From: Gemmatimonadota bacterium | Lineage (GTDB): Bacteria; Gemmatimonadota; Gemmatimonadetes; Gemmatimonadales; Gemmatimonadaceae | Direction of reading: 5' to 3' | DNA: 53,870 nucleotides | NCBI GenBank assembly: GCA_016871915.1 | Contig: VHBP01000009.1 | Location: 1 to 53,870, forward strand | In this document: in pieces, positions 30,701 to 53,657 of the stretch | Layout: each line of letters opens with the position of its first letter | Position numbering within the stretch: the stretch's first letter is position 1 | Notes under the pieces: generated by a model | What the model saw: the letters and a program-made list of their open reading frames with translations, nothing else | The model's database searches: none | Told to the model about the DNA's origin: nothing | Program-made: the position numbers and the translations under genes

Positions 30701-31022
30701 TCGCGTCGCCTTCGCGAATGTCGAGCTCCGCTTCCCACTCGTGCGCCGGTTCGTGCTCGGCCTGCTCCCCGTCTCACTCCCGCCCGTCGACGGACTCTTC
30801 TTCTACGACATGGGAATGGCGTGGTCCAAGGATCAGTCCGTCTCGCTGCGCCGTCCCGAGAACTACGACTTCGTCACCCAGCGGTATCCGCTGAGCAGCT
30901 ACGGCTTCGGGATCCGGATGAACCTTTTCAACATCGCCTTGATCCGGTGGGACTACACGATCCCGCGCGACGGGACCTTCCGCAACGGGTACTGGTTCTG
31001 GACGCTCGGACAATCGTTCTGA
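27783..31022 (+). CDS. Outer-membrane protein with metallopeptidase, PD40 beta-propeller and C-terminal beta-barrel
   Basis: The 1079-residue protein has a signal peptide (residues 1-24, cleavage near GAQG). Residues 40-230 form a gluzincin-like domain with HEMVH (139-143) and the third zinc ligand in WYVEGMAEY (Glu173), like peptidase MA-type domains. Residues about 235-600 hold TolB-like PD40 repeats such as SPDGKQIAYIS, WSPDGRKIVFSG and WSPDGRQIVFAS. From about 690 on, alternating aromatic beta-strands end in the terminal Phe of TLGQSF, as in BamA/Omp85-type barrels. A surface or periplasmic protease tethered to the outer membrane is the natural reading. The ATG at 27783 precedes the signal peptide directly. 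Confidence 0.85.
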   Translation: MRRFGRRLALALTLAITLALPAGAQGGYFGQNHVQFRTFEWQVLKTEHFDIHYYPELLEAARLTGQMAERSYARLSRLLNHTFKERKPIIIFGSRAEFAQNNVLGDLGEGTGGVTDALRQRNMFFFAGDLGEAEHVLTHEMVHVFQYDIFARGQAGAGLEQLAQVNPPLWYVEGMAEYLSIGPVHPYTDAVMRDAALNGNVPSVDAMTERPDQFFPYRFGESLWRYVGRRWGDEVIGEIMHATPSLGVDRAFRRYTGLSLEDLGDEWKEEVQQQYLPQVATLERPRRTASPLLNERRTGGVIPVYVAPALSPDGKQIAYISTGSLLRAEVFLDLYLADATTGKRITRLTQSTLDPEFEELRYLYSQGSFSPEGRLFAFTAQRKGRDVLYLYDLRRKRVVRRLDTPLQSMMGPTWSPDGRKIVFSGAQGGLSDLYVIDADGKNLVRLTNDPYGDVMPQWSPDGRQIVFASERGPESDLTSLRLGAWRISVFDFETKTITTLPGQDGKNLNPMWAPDGKSVAFISDRTGIPQLFLYDLGDQEHYQLTRFIGGILSVTEHSPAMSWARDADKLAFTYMDDGNFTIWSVVNPRQLKKQPYRAPVPVLAVDVSATDTTKRAAEDRLKRLAQAIADSIAAERVAQADPRRSRSLYRGTGGLRPTGLLPATERSGISVAALLDSATLNLPSASSFASQRYQGKLRPEAVMRPQIGYAQDNFGRGVYGGTAIILSDLLGNERLALAGGVNGRLSEAQLFVEYTNLAGRFQYQAGVQQQPFFFLASSQQFGNGQQVVQTQVLARFIARSAFANGIYPINRFTRFEYGATFQNVDRSLMYISQGIDFNLGLSTGFYLDSIVGAGSLNYVSPFVAWVQDNALFGPAGAIYGHRYRLSAEKQMGNVQWTNFGVDLRRYDPLVFSLLTVATRFSANLSVGRDELEFPKFIGRPDFIRGYDRELYAGDCSSSVSDPNLCGATQLLGSRVAFANVELRFPLVRRFVLGLLPVSLPPVDGLFFYDMGMAWSKDQSVSLRRPENYDFVTQRYPLSSYGFGIRMNLFNIALIRWDYTIPRDGTFRNGYWFWTLGQSF

Positions 31023-31054
31023 GCCCGTTCTTGGCGCCTCGTCGTGCCCGGGCG

Positions 31055-32485
31055 ATGCGCCGCGCCTGCACCGCCGTCGGGCTGGCCGCTGCCCTTGCGA
31101 TGGTGTCGGGGTGCGAGGCGCCGGCACCGGCGTCCCATGCCGTGTTGCGGGGGGCGGGGCCCGACGCCGTCCTGCTCCGCATCCCCGCCGCCGAGGGGAT
31201 CGTCGCCGCCTATACGGCGGATGCTGACAGCGTCCTCTGGCGCTCGCGCGCGCCCGCCCCGATGCTCTCCACCGTCCTCGGGTTCGACGAGTACAGCGGG
31301 CTCGTACTCGCGCGCGATTCCGCGGGGCATGCCATCAGCATCGATCTCCGCCTCGGGTCGGTCGATCGGCTCGGGACGTCGGCGCTTCGCGGTGAGGTGC
31401 GAAGCGACGGGACGGCCGTCTTCGGCCACGACAGCACGGGCCGCGTTGCACGCGTCACCCCAGTGGCCACCTGGACCTGGGCCCCGCCGGAGCCGGCGCG
31501 CCATCTCATCCCGTTGCCCGATGGGGCGCTCCTCGTCGCCTCGGAGATCCCGGGCGGGACAGCGATCCGCCGATTGATTCCGCCGGAGACGACCGTCACG
31601 GACAGCACCAACCTCCCGACGGCACGCAGTGTGCTCCGGACTGCGGCGGGCGACCGACTCTGGGTCCTCACGGACGCGGAGGTGGTCGCGCTGCGGACGC
31701 GCGATCTCTCCCCCGCCCTCAGGATCCCGCTTGGTGACCCAGTCTCCGCGATGGAGGCGACGCCGAGCGGCGACCGACTCTTCCTCGCCTCGGATCGCGA
31801 TGCATTGCGCGTGATCGACCGATTCGCGGAGCGGGAAGTGGGGCGCGTCGCACTCCCTGGACCTGCGACGGCCCTCCGCATGGACCCTGATGGCGTGTTT
31901 CTGCTGGTGCGCACCGAGGCCCCCGCAGGGATCCAGGTCGTCGCGATCGGGACCATGCGGGTGGTGGCCACCTTCGCGGGGGCGTGGCGCGACGATCTCC
32001 CGGTCGTCACGCCGGCGGGGCAGGTGGTGGTCGCGCGGGATGGGGCGATCCTCATCCACGACATCGTCACCGGCCGTGAGGTCCGACGGATCCCCGGCGG
32101 CGCGGTGGATCGCTGGCAGCTGCTGCGCTGGAACGGATTTCGTCCGCGCGCGGCGAGCCTCGATCGCCCGGTGGAATTCGACTCGCTCGACCAACCGGTC
32201 GAGGGTGAGGTGGCAGTGGAACCGGTCGAGACCCCGCGACCCGCGGCACCTCCGGACAACGAGACGTGGACCTTGGCGTTCGCGACGCTGATCGACCTGG
32301 ACCGTGCTCGTCAGATCGCCCGCGAGATCACGGTGGAGGGACGCGCAGCCCGGGTGGTGATCGGGGACCGCGATGGTGATCCGATCTACCGGGTGCTCCT
32401 CGGCCCCTACCCGTCACGGGAAGCGGCCGAGCGCGCGGGGATGCTGGCCGGTCGCGCCTACTGGGTCTTCGAGGGGCCGCCATGA
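31055..32485 (+). CDS. Beta-propeller lipoprotein with C-terminal SPOR domain
   Basis: The 476-residue product starts with a lipoprotein signal (MVSGC, predicted acylated Cys at about residue 21). Residues 40-360 are repeated beta-strand units, for example GDRLWVLTDAEVVALRTRD and GDRLFLASDRDALRVIDR, like a WD40/YVTN propeller. The last 75 residues (WTLAFATLIDLDRARQIAREI, in part, to YRVLLGPYPSREAAERA) form a SPOR domain. SPOR domains bind glycan strands stripped of stem peptides, usually at the septum. The stop overlaps the next start as ATGA. Confidence 0.8.
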   Translation: MRRACTAVGLAAALAMVSGCEAPAPASHAVLRGAGPDAVLLRIPAAEGIVAAYTADADSVLWRSRAPAPMLSTVLGFDEYSGLVLARDSAGHAISIDLRLGSVDRLGTSALRGEVRSDGTAVFGHDSTGRVARVTPVATWTWAPPEPARHLIPLPDGALLVASEIPGGTAIRRLIPPETTVTDSTNLPTARSVLRTAAGDRLWVLTDAEVVALRTRDLSPALRIPLGDPVSAMEATPSGDRLFLASDRDALRVIDRFAEREVGRVALPGPATALRMDPDGVFLLVRTEAPAGIQVVAIGTMRVVATFAGAWRDDLPVVTPAGQVVVARDGAILIHDIVTGREVRRIPGGAVDRWQLLRWNGFRPRAASLDRPVEFDSLDQPVEGEVAVEPVETPRPAAPPDNETWTLAFATLIDLDRARQIAREITVEGRAARVVIGDRDGDPIYRVLLGPYPSREAAERAGMLAGRAYWVFEGPP

Positions 32486-33849
32486 TCCCTGCCCCCCTGC
32501 CCCCGGCGATTTGGGTGGCTGAGGGAGCGCGCATAGCCGAGCGGGTCACCGGAGTGAGCGCCATCGTGGTGGTCGGGCGCGAGCCGGAGGTGACCGCGCT
32601 CGTCGCGCGTGGGGTCGCGTCGGTGGCGAGTGCGGAACGCGCCGTCGCGATCGCCGATCTGATCGGCGACGTCGCGGCCTTGACCGTTCCGCAGGCGGTG
32701 CCCGGACTCCGCGAATGTTTTCGCGATGGGGCTCCCGTCTCCGACACGGCCCAGCCGCTCGAGGGAGGCGCGCAGGTCTTCGTCCTCCCGCACGGCACCG
32801 CGCGGCTCGATACGTACGCCCTCGCCGGTCACCCTCGCTGGCGGCCCCTGATCGCAGGGTTCCGTCGCACGGAGGGGCTCTTGCTGATCGCCGCGCTTGC
32901 CGGCACGGACGGACTGGACTCGCTGATCGAGGCATCGGATGGTGTGATCGCGGTCGATCTCCCCCCCGTGCTGCTGCGGCGCTGGCCCGTCGTGGGGACG
33001 GTGGATCGTCCGGAGGAACTCCCACCGATCGTGGTCAGCGAGGCGGGGCGCGCCCTGCTGGAGGAGCGAGCCACCGCGACGCCAGCCGCCCCCCCACCGC
33101 TCGCGACCGAGGCGACCCGGTGGGCCGCCCTCGCCCCGCTTCGTCGCCCGCGGAACGCCGCGATGCTCGTGGGCGGCGTGACCCTGGTGGCCCTCGGCGC
33201 GCTCTGGCTCTCGGGCGGGCCCGGCCGCGCCCTGGTCGAGGCGCTCCGGGTACCCGCCCCCACGCCCCCCACCGACACCCTCGCCTGGACCGACACCGCC
33301 GCCCGCGCCGACATCCCGATCGACACCATCACCCTCGGGGCCGTTGTCAACCCTCAGGACTCGATCGGCGCCGCGGCATTCACCGTCCAACTCGTAGCGG
33401 CGAACAGCGTGGTGGGTGCAAATTCCTCTCTCGTCCGGCGCGGTGGTGCCCCACTACCCGCCACGACGATCGCCCCGGTCCAGCTCGATGTGGATGGGCG
33501 GACGTGGTACCGCGCCCTCGTCGGTGCGTGGCAGGATCCTCGAGAGGCGGAACGCTTCCTCGAGACCTTGCGACGCGATGGCACCGTGGACGCGGCGGCG
33601 GGGCGGGTCCTGCGCGTACCCTATGCGTTGCAGCTCACGGAAGGCATGGCTGTCACCGAGGTCCCCGCCGCGCTCGCGCGCTGGTCACGACTTGGCGTCG
33701 CAGCCTATGCGCTGGCGCAGGATGATGGACGGGTCCGCCTCCTGGCGGGTGCCTTCGAGACTCCAGACCAGGCGGCGGTGCTGGCGGTGTCGCTTCGCGA
33801 TGCCGGTGTGCCCCCCGTGGTGGTCTTCCGATTCGGGAGAACGTTCTAA
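32482..33849 (+). CDS. Degenerate MinD-like domain, one membrane segment and two SPOR-like domains
   Basis: The 455-residue protein has no recognisable catalytic motif. Residues 1-190 follow the strand and helix order of MinD/CpsD-type ATPases, with a DxxxD-type strand near 55-66 (AVAIADLIGDVAAL), VFVLPHG near 99, and a LLLIAALAGTDGL plus DGVIAVDLPP block at 133-162. The Walker A loop is missing. A transmembrane segment spans about 226-243. Residues 299-366 and 381-450 are SPOR-like units (WYRALVGAWQDPREAERFL; VRLLAGAFETPDQAAVLAV). The domain reading is my own inference. It sits directly upstream of smc. Confidence 0.6.
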   Translation: MIPAPLPPAIWVAEGARIAERVTGVSAIVVVGREPEVTALVARGVASVASAERAVAIADLIGDVAALTVPQAVPGLRECFRDGAPVSDTAQPLEGGAQVFVLPHGTARLDTYALAGHPRWRPLIAGFRRTEGLLLIAALAGTDGLDSLIEASDGVIAVDLPPVLLRRWPVVGTVDRPEELPPIVVSEAGRALLEERATATPAAPPPLATEATRWAALAPLRRPRNAAMLVGGVTLVALGALWLSGGPGRALVEALRVPAPTPPTDTLAWTDTAARADIPIDTITLGAVVNPQDSIGAAAFTVQLVAANSVVGANSSLVRRGGAPLPATTIAPVQLDVDGRTWYRALVGAWQDPREAERFLETLRRDGTVDAAAGRVLRVPYALQLTEGMAVTEVPAALARWSRLGVAAYALAQDDGRVRLLAGAFETPDQAAVLAVSLRDAGVPPVVVFRFGRTF

Positions 33850-36800
33850 GTGCGGTTGACCAAGCTCGAGTTGCACGGATTCAAGTCGTTCGCCGACCCC
33901 ACGGTCCTCACCTTCGACCATGGCGCCACGGCGATCGTCGGCCCCAACGGGTGCGGCAAGTCCAACGTCTCCGACGCCGTGCGCTGGGTCCTCGGTGAGC
34001 AGCGGGCGCGCCTCCTGCGTGGCGCCAAGATGGAGGAGGTCATCTTCCAGGGCTCTTCGGCGCGCCGCGCGGTCAACATCGCCGAGGTCTCGCTGCACTT
34101 CGAGAACGAGGAGGGGATCCTCCCCGTGCCGTTCAAGGAGGTGGTGATCACACGCCGCCTCTCGCGCTCCGGTGACAGCGACTACTTCCTGAATCGTACC
34201 CCGTGCCGCCTCAGGGACATCCACGATCTCCTGCGTGGCACCGGCCTCGGCGCCGACTCCGGCGTGGTGATCGAGAGCAAGATGATCGACCTCCTCCTCT
34301 CGGACCGCCCGGACGATCGGCGCGAGCTCTTCGAGGAGGCCGCGGGCGTCGGGCTCTATCGCGATCGCCGCCGCAGCACCGAACGGCAGCTCGAGGCGAC
34401 GACCAACGACCTCACGCGCATCGACGACCTGATGGGCGAGGTCCAGACGCAGGTGCGCTCCCTGCTCCGGCAGCGCAAGCGCGCGGAGCGCCATGCGGAG
34501 ATCACCACGCGGCGCTTTGCCGTGGAGCTCACCCTCGCCTCGCGCGAGATGAGCGCCTGGCATGAGGAGCTAACGGGGATCGAGTCGCGACTCGGCGGCT
34601 TGCGCGATGGCGTGCCGGCGACGCAGGAGCAGGTGCGCGTCGCCGAAGCGGCCCGCGATGCCGCGCATGCGGCGCGCGCCGCGGCGGAGACCACGCGCCA
34701 GGAGCGCGCCACCGTTGCCGCCACCGCGCGGCAGGCGGTGCTCGAGCTGCAGCAGCAGCTCGCCGTCGCCGAGGAGCGCCATCGCAATGCGCTCTCGCGC
34801 CGTGAGCGCACCGTACAGGAGCGCGACGAGGGCGTCGCCTTCGGGGATCGGATGCGTGGGGAGTTCGAGGCCGCCCAGGCCGACGAGACGCAGTGCGCCG
34901 AGGCGCTCACCGCGGCCTCCACGCTGCTGCAGGAGCGGATGGCGACCGAGGAGCAGAGCCGCGCCGGGGTGACGGCGGCGCGCACCGCGGCGGATGAGGC
35001 CGACCGTGCGGTGCAGGGGCTGCGCGAACAGGTGCGGCGCCTTGAGTTGGAGCGCGAGACGGCGGAGCGCGAGCTCGCCGAGGTCGCGCAGCGCACCGAA
35101 GCGCTTCGCGCCGAGCACGAGGCGCTGAGCGCGCGCCTCGCGCTGGCCGATCGTGAGCTCCAGGCCGCGGATGATGTGCTCGCCGGCGCGCGCGAACAGG
35201 CCGCGCTCGCCGAGAATGCGCTCGATCAGGCCCGTGCCACCGCACGCACCGCGCGCGACCGTGAAGCCGCGGCCCGCGCTGATGTGCGGCGTGTGGAGGA
35301 GGAGCACACCGCGCTCACCGGGCGCCTCGCCGCGCTCGAGGGCTTGGAGCGCGAGCGCGTGGGGCTCGCCCCCGCCGCCGCCAAGCTCCTGCGCGAGCGG
35401 GAGCGGTTCGGTGGTGAGGCGATCTTGGGGCCCCTCTCCGACTTCATCGGGGCGGATACCTCGGTCGCGGCGCAGGTCGAGCGCTTCCTGGGCCCCACCG
35501 TGCACGCGGTGGTGGTGCGCGACCGCGCGGCCGCGGAGGCGATCCGCAGCTGGCACGCGGAGACCAACCCCGGAGCGCTCCTGCTCCTCCCGCTCGATAC
35601 GCTCGCTGGTGCCGCCGATGTCGACCCCGAGGATCTCGGGTCGCGCGTGCGCTCCGAAGGCGCGGCCGGTCGCTGGGTGCGTGCCCTGCTCGGCCATGTG
35701 AAGGCCGTCGCCGATGGGAGCGCCTTCGTCGATGCACGGGGAGCGATGTGGCTCCCCGCCAAGGAGTCGGGGGCGGGGCCGCTGCGTCGCCGCGCCGAAC
35801 TCGAGGAGCTGCGCACGCAGCTGGGGAGCATCGAGACGCGTCGCGCCGCGGTGCAGGCCGCCGCGCAGCAGGTGCATGATGAGGTCGTACAGGCGGAAGC
35901 CGCGGCGACCGCCGCGGCCGATGCCACCGCCGCCGCACAGCAGGCCTCCGCACAGGCGGCGCAGGTGCGCAACGAGCGGGATCGCGTGCGCGAGCGCGCG
36001 GCCCGTGAGCTCGCCGATGCCGTCGCCCTCTCGGAGAAGCTCGCCGGCCGGCACACCGAGCTCGGGGACCGCGTGACCGCCGGGATCGCCGCGCAGGACG
36101 AACTGGCGCAGCGCCTGATCGTCTCGGAGCAGACCGCGGCCTCGGCCCGCACGCTGCTCACCACCGCCGAACGCGCGCAGGATGAGGCGCGTGAGGGACG
36201 CGCGGCGCAGCAGGTGGCGCATGCCCAGGCCGAAGCGCGTCGCCAGGTGGCGACCGAACGGCGCGAGCGGATCGATCGCGAGCGCCACACCGCCGCGCAG
36301 CGTCTCGCGACCCTCGAGCAGGAGCTCGCGACCCTCATGCAGGAGGTCGGCGCGCTCGAGGAGCAGATGACCATCTGGCAGCATGAGATCGCGAGCCGTC
36401 GCGCGGTCCTGCAGGATGCGGAGGCGACCTTTGCCGCCGCTGAGGAAGGGGTGCGCCTCGCAGATGCGACGCTCGCGGACCAGGAGCTCGCACTGACGCA
36501 GGCGCGGCGACAGGCCGAGGACGGGGCGCAGGCGCTGCACCTCGCCGAACTCCGCTTCGCCGAGCTCTCGGGCAAGCGCGCGGCCATCAAGGAGCGGCTC
36601 GAGACCGAGTGGCGTCGCCCGCTCGAGGAGCTCCTCGCGAACTATGACGCGGTCGAGCTGGAGGACGAGCCCCTCCGTGCCGAGGCCGATGAGCTGCGCC
36701 GTCAGCTCGAGCAGCTCGGCCCGGTCAACCCGCTCGCCATCGAGGAGCATGAGGAGGAGACCCGCCGACTGGAGTTCCTCACCACGCAGCGCGCCGACCT

Positions 36801-37359
36801 CTCCGAGGCCCAGACCAAGCTGCATGCGGCGATCAAGGAGATCGACGTCACCGCCCGCGAGATGTTCTTGACGACCTTCGCTGAGGTGCGCACGCACTTC
36901 CGTGAGATCTTCATGACGCTCTTCGGGGGCGGCGAATGCGACCTGCGTCTCGAGAATCCCGATGCGCCGCTCGACTGCGACATCGAGATCCACGCGAGCC
37001 CGCGCGGGAAGCGCACGCAGCGCATCCATCTGCTCTCGAGCGGTGAGCGCGCCCTCGTGGCACTCTCCCTGCTCTTCGGCATCTTCCTCACCAAGCCGAG
37101 CCCTTTCTGTCTGCTGGACGAAGTCGACGCCCCGCTCGACGACCAGAACATCGGGCGCTTCGTGAAGATGCTGAACCAGTTCAAGCAGCGGACGCAGTTC
37201 ATCGTGATCACGCACAACCCGCGCACCACGACGGAGGCCGCCGACGCGGTCTACGGCGTGACGATGCAGGAGCCGGGGGTGTCGTCGCTGGTGAGCGTGC
37301 GGATGCGTGGCCCTGCGGTCGATACCGCGGAGCCCGCGGACGCGGCCCCAGTGGTCTGA
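33850..37359 (+). CDS. smc: Chromosome segregation protein SMC
   Basis: The 1169-residue protein has the full SMC architecture. Walker A GPNGCGKSNVSDAVRWVLGE is at residues about 33-52. Two long coiled coils rich in Ala/Glu/Arg flank a hinge at about 510-650. The C-terminal head has the signature LLSSGERALVALSLLFGIF and Walker B PFCLLDEVDAPLDD. SMC forms the condensin ring with ScpA and ScpB, which are not here. The GTG start follows the previous stop directly. The frame carries no frameshift despite its low complexity. Confidence 0.97.
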   Translation: MRLTKLELHGFKSFADPTVLTFDHGATAIVGPNGCGKSNVSDAVRWVLGEQRARLLRGAKMEEVIFQGSSARRAVNIAEVSLHFENEEGILPVPFKEVVITRRLSRSGDSDYFLNRTPCRLRDIHDLLRGTGLGADSGVVIESKMIDLLLSDRPDDRRELFEEAAGVGLYRDRRRSTERQLEATTNDLTRIDDLMGEVQTQVRSLLRQRKRAERHAEITTRRFAVELTLASREMSAWHEELTGIESRLGGLRDGVPATQEQVRVAEAARDAAHAARAAAETTRQERATVAATARQAVLELQQQLAVAEERHRNALSRRERTVQERDEGVAFGDRMRGEFEAAQADETQCAEALTAASTLLQERMATEEQSRAGVTAARTAADEADRAVQGLREQVRRLELERETAERELAEVAQRTEALRAEHEALSARLALADRELQAADDVLAGAREQAALAENALDQARATARTARDREAAARADVRRVEEEHTALTGRLAALEGLERERVGLAPAAAKLLRERERFGGEAILGPLSDFIGADTSVAAQVERFLGPTVHAVVVRDRAAAEAIRSWHAETNPGALLLLPLDTLAGAADVDPEDLGSRVRSEGAAGRWVRALLGHVKAVADGSAFVDARGAMWLPAKESGAGPLRRRAELEELRTQLGSIETRRAAVQAAAQQVHDEVVQAEAAATAAADATAAAQQASAQAAQVRNERDRVRERAARELADAVALSEKLAGRHTELGDRVTAGIAAQDELAQRLIVSEQTAASARTLLTTAERAQDEAREGRAAQQVAHAQAEARRQVATERRERIDRERHTAAQRLATLEQELATLMQEVGALEEQMTIWQHEIASRRAVLQDAEATFAAAEEGVRLADATLADQELALTQARRQAEDGAQALHLAELRFAELSGKRAAIKERLETEWRRPLEELLANYDAVELEDEPLRAEADELRRQLEQLGPVNPLAIEEHEEETRRLEFLTTQRADLSEAQTKLHAAIKEIDVTAREMFLTTFAEVRTHFREIFMTLFGGGECDLRLENPDAPLDCDIEIHASPRGKRTQRIHLLSSGERALVALSLLFGIFLTKPSPFCLLDEVDAPLDDQNIGRFVKMLNQFKQRTQFIVITHNPRTTTEAADAVYGVTMQEPGVSSLVSVRMRGPAVDTAEPADAAPVV

Positions 37360-52235: not shown

Positions 52236-53657
52236 CTACGGGGTGATGAGGCCAGAGGGCAGACGCGCGACGGTGGCGCCGGGATAGTAGGCCGAGAGGA
52301 TGGCGCGGTGGTCTTGACCGGCGCGCGCACGCCCGATCGCCCCCCACTGACACATCCCGACCCCATGTCCCGACCCGCGCCCCTCGAGCACCGCGCGGAT
52401 GAGACGCCCACCGTCCTGCTCCACCGCGAGCGAAAAATAGGCGCTGGGCAGGAGGTCGCCAGCTGGCGATCGAAGGACGCTGCGCGCGGCGTTCCCTGGG
52501 ACGGTGAAGGTCCCCGCCTCGGCCCGCAGCTCGAGGCGTGCGACGCGCCCACTCGTCCCGGTGCCCACCACGCGAAGCCCCTGCACGCGGCCCGGTCCCC
52601 CGCGGGGGACGGCGGTGACACTCGCCAGATAGCGCTGCACCACGAGATCCACCTCGGCGGCGGCGAGCCGACGGGTCCACCGATAGGTCGGCGAGCCGTC
52701 ACAGTAGTCGCGCGTCGTCCCGGGGATGCGATCGCTCACCCCGCGGAGGTGACTCGCCCCCGCTACATCCCAGACCTCGGTGGCTGCCGCCGTCCGCCCC
52801 CCGCAGGTGGAGAAGAAGGGGGCATCGGCCACCTGCCCGCCCACCATCAACACGAGGCCGCTCGTACGCTCGATCGCCTGATCGGACGACTGGCGTTCCG
52901 CGGTGAGCCCCCCGTATACCTGATCGCTGACGGTCGGGAGGAGATCGAACCACTGACGCCGTGTCGTCCCCCGACGCTCGGCGATGAGCCGACGCACGGT
53001 GTAGGTGCGCGCCGCGATCGCCTGCGCCTCCACGGCATCACGCTCGCCCGCCGGTCGATCGCCGATCTCGAGTGGGACCACCCCGCGGAGGTAATCATCG
53101 AGCGGGAGCATATTCACGACGAGGACGCCGGAGTCGGTCGCGACATGCCGCAACACCCCGCGATAGGCGCGCCCCCCCGACCGCACCGTCCCCACCCGAT
53201 CGGTCCGCAGCGTCACCGGCCCGACGTGCCATGCGCTCGCCAAGCCGTCGGTGCGCACCGCGCGCAGCAACGTCCCGCGCCGCTCGATCGACCACCGGTC
53301 CCGCGGATTCGCGCGGACGATGACCCCACCATCCTCGTCGAGGAGACGCCACGCGCCGCTCGCGCTCAGCGGTGCCGACCCAACGTGCACCGTGAGCGCG
53401 ATCCGGACCGTGGGGCCCTCCCCAAGTGAGGGGGATGGTGGGGCCTCATCGAGCGGGAAGGCCTCGTCCGGTGCTGGAGCGACGTCGGTGTCCCGGGCCA
53501 CCGATGGGCTCGGTCGCTCCACGGTCGGCCGGTTCGTGGTGGTCGGTGTCGTGGCTGGGGACAGGGGACGACGCCCACAGGCGCCGACCACGAGGACCAG
53601 CGTGGTCAGGGTGCCTGCGACGACGCGCCAGCGCCAGCCGACGCGCGTCGAGCTCAC
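52236..53657 (-). CDS. SpoIID/LytB-domain lipoprotein
   Basis: The 473-residue product has a lipoprotein signal (VVGAC, acylated Cys about residue 27), a Pro/Thr-rich linker to about residue 85, then the SpoIID domain: LPLDDYLRGVVPLEIGD, EAQAIAARTYTVRR, FFSTCGGRTA and the C-terminal GSGHGVGMCQWGA. SpoIID enzymes are lytic transglycosylases acting on denuded glycan strands, the same strands bound by SPOR domains found elsewhere in this window. No sporulation genes are visible. The GTG overlaps the preceding gene's stop (GTGA). Confidence 0.88.
   Translation of the reverse strand: MSSTRVGWRWRVVAGTLTTLVLVVGACGRRPLSPATTPTTTNRPTVERPSPSVARDTDVAPAPDEAFPLDEAPPSPSLGEGPTVRIALTVHVGSAPLSASGAWRLLDEDGGVIVRANPRDRWSIERRGTLLRAVRTDGLASAWHVGPVTLRTDRVGTVRSGGRAYRGVLRHVATDSGVLVVNMLPLDDYLRGVVPLEIGDRPAGERDAVEAQAIAARTYTVRRLIAERRGTTRRQWFDLLPTVSDQVYGGLTAERQSSDQAIERTSGLVLMVGGQVADAPFFSTCGGRTAAATEVWDVAGASHLRGVSDRIPGTTRDYCDGSPTYRWTRRLAAAEVDLVVQRYLASVTAVPRGGPGRVQGLRVVGTGTSGRVARLELRAEAGTFTVPGNAARSVLRSPAGDLLPSAYFSLAVEQDGGRLIRAVLEGRGSGHGVGMCQWGAIGRARAGQDHRAILSAYYPGATVARLPSGLITP

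Follow-up and report, generated by a model that had tools for sequence, protein, structure and literature searches.

A conserved pseudo-BY-kinase SPOR membrane protein encoded directly upstream of smc in Gemmatimonadota

Proteins that share part of the layout addressed here have been described in other bacteria. In Escherichia coli FtsN, a cytoplasmic N-terminus is followed by a single transmembrane (TM) segment and a C-terminal SPOR domain, the topology that is also predicted for the protein of this study; FtsN uses its cytoplasmic tail to bind FtsA and its SPOR domain to bind denuded septal glycan (PMC9525312, in its available part). In DamX, a large cytoplasmic domain that is likely folded is accompanied by a TM segment, a long linker, and a SPOR domain (available portion of PMC7642682), and its likeness to our protein is one of layout. 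The BY-kinases (Wzc, Etk, VpsO, BceF, CapB, and CpsD) are related through the fold and the sequence of the N-terminal domain, and one of them, CpsD, is located at the division site according to the available sections of PMC4574921. MinD, ParA, and Soj share the same superfamily fold. The TadZ/CpaE-type relatives of MinD are proteins of this superfamily with a degenerate Walker A motif, which have no SPOR domain and act in another pathway.

According to a 2024 study, the Gemmatimonadota divide by binary fission, carry a canonical set of fts genes, and have no Min, MipZ, PomZ, or MapZ; the study named ParA-like proteins as candidates for division placement (PMC11271474, as available in part). 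Its main text mentions neither ftsN nor smc, and in the available part SPOR appears only as a sporulation-type annotation. The genome of our locus encodes a parAB pair (L102) and, away from it, another ParA-like ATPase whose KGGVGKTT motif is intact (L103, 2154-3077, minus strand). We analyzed 53,870 nt of this genome, hereafter the window (positions 1 to 53,870 of contig VHBP01000009.1, assembly GCA_016871915.1), in which an open reading frame at 32482-33849 on the forward strand, supported by conserved homologues, runs from an ATG start to a TAA stop and encodes a protein of 455 amino acids in which a pseudo-BY-kinase domain and a pair of SPOR units lie on either side of a TM helix. The smc gene (33850-37359, forward strand; SMC_N 7.6e-67 and SMC_hinge in Pfam) begins with the GTG at 33850, the base after the TAA at 33847-33849, leaving a zero-base gap, and the ATG of the pseudo-kinase gene shares 4 nt (ATGA) with the stop of the gene upstream. 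An earlier note, made from the letters of this DNA alone, had observed a gene at this place directly before smc, and the observation held. The upstream gene (31055-32485, forward strand) encodes a signal sequence, a possible lipobox, and a C-terminal SPOR domain, with a weak, under-cut-off Pfam match to the PQQ_2 propeller, and a SPOR-like C-terminal domain ended the upstream gene in 46/46 sampled loci of the same family. Farther upstream in the window lie rplI and rsfS, and a DAHP synthase gene (aroF) lies downstream. A promoter and terminator scan of 30900-34200 returned no such site, with few also expected by chance; the upstream gene, the pseudo-kinase gene, and smc look like one transcription unit. 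The pseudo-kinase gene is present in a single copy in its own genome (G000, 2.07 Mb, 120 contigs).

The cytoplasmic N-terminal domain (approximately residues 24-175; 32551-33006, forward strand) was delimited by AlphaFold, Foldseek, VIA, and hhalign. In the AlphaFold model, which was built with 30 aligned family members, residues 11-180 had block pLDDT values of 81-97, and strands alternated with helices. When this model was compared with the PDB by Foldseek, ranks 1-49 were all BY-kinases, including VpsO (E 6.6e-5), Wzc, BceF, CapAB, and Etk, and MinD appeared first at rank 50. The second aligner, VIA, gave the same picture, with a Z of 17.1 for VpsO (6u1q; 178 residues, 3.9 A), 15.1 for Wzc, 14.9 for CapA1B1, and 14.7 for Etk, compared with about 12 for MinD and Soj. 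At the sequence level, the profile of the N-terminal domain matched genuine BY-kinases with GKS or GKT in eight sampled loci (best E about 1e-10). By hhalign, the family matched these eight BY-kinases with a probability of 97.5-99.1% and the two ParA proteins of its own genome with 0.1-43%, a comparison tilted in favor of the BY-kinases, which came from the family's own profile; because the ParA side comprised two sequences, a two-sequence BY-kinase control was included, and it gave 97-98%. The profile match of the near family to the two ParA proteins was not significant in hhalign. Three further searches were run: Pfam gave no match for the N-terminal domain and HMMER comparison of its profile with PDB sequences gave weak Hsp70 matches only (best E 0.24), both uninformative, and the NCBIfam model of the XrtA-associated tyrosine autokinase was matched below threshold in 7/30 members (best E 0.015). 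The earlier note had called this domain MinD-like. The predicted structure has the superfamily fold of MinD, and the superfamily assignment is supported, but the nearest relatives in both fold and sequence are BY-kinases of the CpsD/Wzc type, and strict homology to MinD/ParA was rejected. Since the BY-kinases gave the better fold match and were also found by the sequence profile, pseudo-BY-kinase is the best name for the domain.

The motifs that serve catalysis in BY-kinases have been lost from this domain almost completely. In an alignment of 73 family members with eight BY-kinases, the Walker A lysine and the Walker B aspartate were each present in 8/8 BY-kinases and in 0/73 family members, and the second aspartate of Walker A', also present in 8/8 BY-kinases, was found in seven of the 73 members, the window protein not among them. 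The former Walker A P-loop site of the window protein (residues 32-38; 32575-32595, forward strand, from the alignment) is without GK[S/T], in agreement with the earlier description of a MinD/CpsD-like domain that lacks the P-loop, and the deviant Walker A motif KGG[V/T]GK[S/T] that distinguishes the MinD/ParA ATPases is absent as well. The sole catalytic-motif residue left is Asp59, aligned with the first aspartate of Walker A' (32656-32658, forward strand); this residue was kept in 73/73 members and was invariant in the smaller alignment (30/30), and its equivalent was apparently lost in two further, very diverged members adjoining smc (L124 and L126). The window protein has no tyrosine between residue 113 and the TM helix and is thus without the C-terminal tyrosine cluster. 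In BY-kinases, an EX2RX2R helix serves ring formation; such a helix could not be placed for the family in the alignment of 73 plus eight sequences. Because the catalytic motifs are missing, we rejected the interpretation that the domain is active, whether as an ATPase or as a kinase. The N-terminal domain is nevertheless under purifying selection, with dN/dS values of 0.075-0.28 in 8/8 close pairs, below those of the linker in six of the eight; thus, it represents a retained pseudo-kinase and not a decaying sequence.

A TM helix (residues 224-243; 33151-33210, forward strand), predicted by AlphaFold and hydropathy and oriented N-in/C-out from its flanking charge, follows the pseudo-kinase domain. 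By a 19-residue Kyte-Doolittle mean of at least 1.6, a hydrophobic helix was detected after the N-terminal domain in 67 of the 73 members; among the six failures, one sequence was cut by a contig end, one was partly unreadable, and four were borderline or weak. Beyond a linker modeled with low confidence (residues 244-290), SPOR unit 1 (residues 299-365; 33376-33576, forward strand) was assigned by Pfam, the model, and Foldseek, with 36.3 bits for the protein against a cut-off of 21, and SPOR unit 2 (approximately residues 381-450; 33622-33831, forward strand) by the model and a profile match to the CwlC SPOR structure 1x60, its own Pfam score of 18.5 bits being under the cut-off of 21. The Pfam SPOR match was found in 30/30 aligned members, and the 165 residues at the C-terminus, modeled separately (pTM 0.85), formed two successive beta-alpha-beta-beta-alpha-beta units. 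In addition, the family profile of the C-terminal half matched CwlC SPOR 1x60 through unit 2 (E 5e-5) and, weakly, FtsN SPOR through unit 1 (E 0.035). In Foldseek, the SPOR half superposed at 2.6 A on two SPOR domains, that of CwlC with a by-target TM-score of 0.70 and that of RlpA, from a structure containing denuded glycan (6i09), with one of 0.75. Unrelated double ferredoxin-like proteins outranked the SPOR structures by Foldseek E-value, yet their rmsd was 12-15 A; the best of them by E-value, the regulatory subunit of acetohydroxyacid synthase, was rejected at 14.6 A compared with 2.6-2.9 A for SPOR, and we read it as a chance resemblance between proteins built of two units with a ferredoxin-like fold. 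The membrane segment joining the domains and the pair of SPOR-like units, both proposed in the earlier note, were thereby borne out. There are three SPOR genes in the genome, of which only the one at 32482-33849 combines a cytoplasmic domain with a TM helix; the third (L101, 1396-2496, minus strand), located between mutS and holA, has a signal-like N-terminus and TPR-like repeats. On computational grounds, we consider the identity of the product as a pseudo-BY-kinase SPOR protein secure.

This combination departs from each of the described systems. Compared with the BY-kinases, which have the Walker A lysine and the Walker B aspartate and carry a Wzz-type periplasmic part, the window protein has a SPOR pair in the periplasm and places its kinase-like domain N-terminal to the TM helix. 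FtsN differs in the shortness of its cytoplasmic tail and in its single SPOR domain; the window protein carries two SPOR units and, in the cytoplasm, a folded domain some 180 residues long, and no equivalent of the E segment, by which FtsN activates FtsWI, was identified in it, the linker being of low confidence; DamX also has one SPOR domain, compared with two here. We proposed, as a somewhat probable mechanism, that this is a septal protein of the FtsN/DamX type in which the dead kinase acts as a docking module independent of nucleotide. It would span the inner membrane once, with the topology of FtsN and DamX, and combine its SPOR units with a catalytically dead BY-kinase domain in the cytoplasm. 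From what is known of the SPOR family, we infer that the SPOR pair would bind denuded septal glycan and in this way place the protein in the divisome. SPOR domains are also found in proteins other than divisome activators. The dead kinase, which would not switch with ATP, may offer a fixed docking surface to a cytoplasmic partner, much as the FtsN tail does to FtsA, and the candidate partners are, in order, FtsA/FtsZ, ParB, and SMC. Co-expression with smc would match the level of the protein to chromosome organization, and contact between the two would not be required. The protein makes a good division-protein candidate.

The distribution of the family and its position next to smc bear on how far the neighborhood informs function. 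A single-sequence search detected the protein in 66/198 genomes of the class, and the profile of the N-terminal domain detected it in 266/395 Gemmatimonadota genomes, the latter being a lower bound, with up to eight first-look candidates scored per genome and with some of the missed genomes, from f4, in fact having a strongly diverged member upstream of smc (L124, L126). This conservation, together with the low dN/dS of the N-terminal domain, indicated that the domain pattern is not a product of chance. A plasmid search for the protein gave no match. The 73 members analyzed are the best matches of the class and phylum searches plus 30 picked genomes and are not a random sample; of 93 loci, 76 remained once we had taken out 14 repeats (L031, L032, L033, L037, L038, L047, L048, L049, L051, L053, L054, L057, L059, and L060) and L091-L093, which were taken as duplicates from matching frame length and score, and three BY-kinases were then subtracted. 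The smc gene followed directly in 68 of these 73 members, at a distance of up to 60 nt in 66 of them and of 73 nt in the other two (L090 and L067, the latter read as L094), and across families the GFK[SA]F codons usually lay 23-27 nt past the stop; one member (L075/L095), partly unreadable, was left unjudged for adjacency, and four f11 members, from another class, are not next to smc. The placement directly upstream of smc, pointed out in the earlier note for the window, is conserved over much of the phylum. An explanation with a little under an even chance is that this adjacency reflects an old housekeeping order, rplI-rsfS-X-smc-aroF, in which X is a divisome or wall protein functionally unrelated to smc. 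The presence of rplI and rsfS upstream and of the DAHP synthase gene downstream fits this order, as does the finding that rsfS was the direct upstream neighbor in most of the f5, f7, and f8 loci sampled, and where the pseudo-kinase gene has been lost, smc has remained in place. However, the gene evolves fast, yet its exact position is constant across families; this constancy fits operon coupling and function alike and does not distinguish between them.

Natural variants were observed in which either half of the protein, or the whole gene, is missing, so that each half could be tested separately. Six sampled f7 members without SPOR (L071, L074, L076, L077, L078, and L080) keep the pseudo-kinase and the TM helix, stop 5-51 residues past that helix, and are followed by smc 23-43 nt on. 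Conversely, L110 and L111 have no pseudo-kinase and keep the TM segment and two SPOR units, directly before smc. At least 11 genomes have an intact smc that the pseudo-kinase gene does not precede: in ten from f2 (L112, L113, and L115-L122) and in L109, from the window's own genus, the place directly before smc is taken by a gene of the upstream propeller-SPOR type, and the pseudo-kinase gene is absent there; L114 and L123 were left unclassified in this survey. Because smc in these genomes has no such gene before it, the gene does not share the essentiality of FtsN in E. coli. A septal-glycan function extended to every family member does not account for the six SPOR-less members, which count against the septal docking mechanism that we prefer.

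The same variants weigh on the idea, raised in the earlier note, that the protein links cell division to chromosome segregation. According to this explanation, the SPOR pair would hold at the closing septum a complex that the pseudo-kinase would form with SMC-ScpAB, ParB, or the origin region. In its favor, smc is the next gene in nearly all sampled members of several families, with the zero-base gap in the window, and the SPOR-less six still have the pseudo-kinase, the TM helix, and the adjacency to smc; moreover, the BY-kinase CpsD of Streptococcus pneumoniae is located at the division site and binds ParB (PMC4574921, in its available part), which provides a precedent. On the other hand, either half or the whole gene is dispensable beside smc, the four members of another class lie in a different neighborhood, and the conserved gene order also includes rplI, rsfS, and aroF. 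These results argue against an obligate coupler of division and segregation, and the link was not upheld in that form. We regard a coupling role, including direct coupling to SMC, as unlikely. A phylum-wide dedicated coupler, in which the dead kinase, on the cytoplasmic side of the septum, would hold SMC-ScpAB or a ParB-origin complex while the SPOR pair would sense amidase-processed wall, seems decidedly improbable; if it were true, chromosome clearance and constriction would be read by one protein co-translated with SMC. It is very improbable that the protein regulates envelope polysaccharide export or synthesis, with the dead domain modulating an active BY-kinase through mixed oligomers. 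The nearest kin of the domain are indeed the Wzc/CpsD/VpsO kinases, but no polysaccharide genes occur around it between 31 and 40 kb of the window, the periplasmic part is SPOR and not Wzz, and the EX2RX2R helix was not placeable in the alignment.

The protein, a conserved membrane protein of the Gemmatimonadota, is apparently undescribed to date. Literature searches on the SPOR domain with Gemmatimonadota found no description of it, those on SPOR with MinD-like proteins matched only a Chryseobacterium genome paper, as far as its available part shows, and among the matches listed for SPOR with tyrosine kinase or Wzc, or with SMC or segregation, the protein was not described. It offers a concrete target in a phylum reported, in the available part of PMC11271474, to be without known division-site placement systems. 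Septal-wall-binding-type domains are paired in it with a cytoplasmic domain of the ParA superfamily, its gene stands directly before smc, and the pseudo-BY-kinase family to which it belongs is held by purifying selection.

Two further observations were made. The loci L096-L099, from another class, contain open reading frames of approximately 750-1020 amino acids with the same N-terminal domain and long acidic linkers, one of them cut by a contig end; where complete, these end in a SPOR-like domain, and a radical SAM gene adjoins. In L099, an SMC C-terminus lies convergent at about 4 kb from the pseudo-kinase gene. The window itself also carries a SpoIID-domain gene (52236-53657, minus strand). 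The SpoIID family is associated with the cleavage of wall glycan, and this gene may bear on the ligands of the SPOR units.
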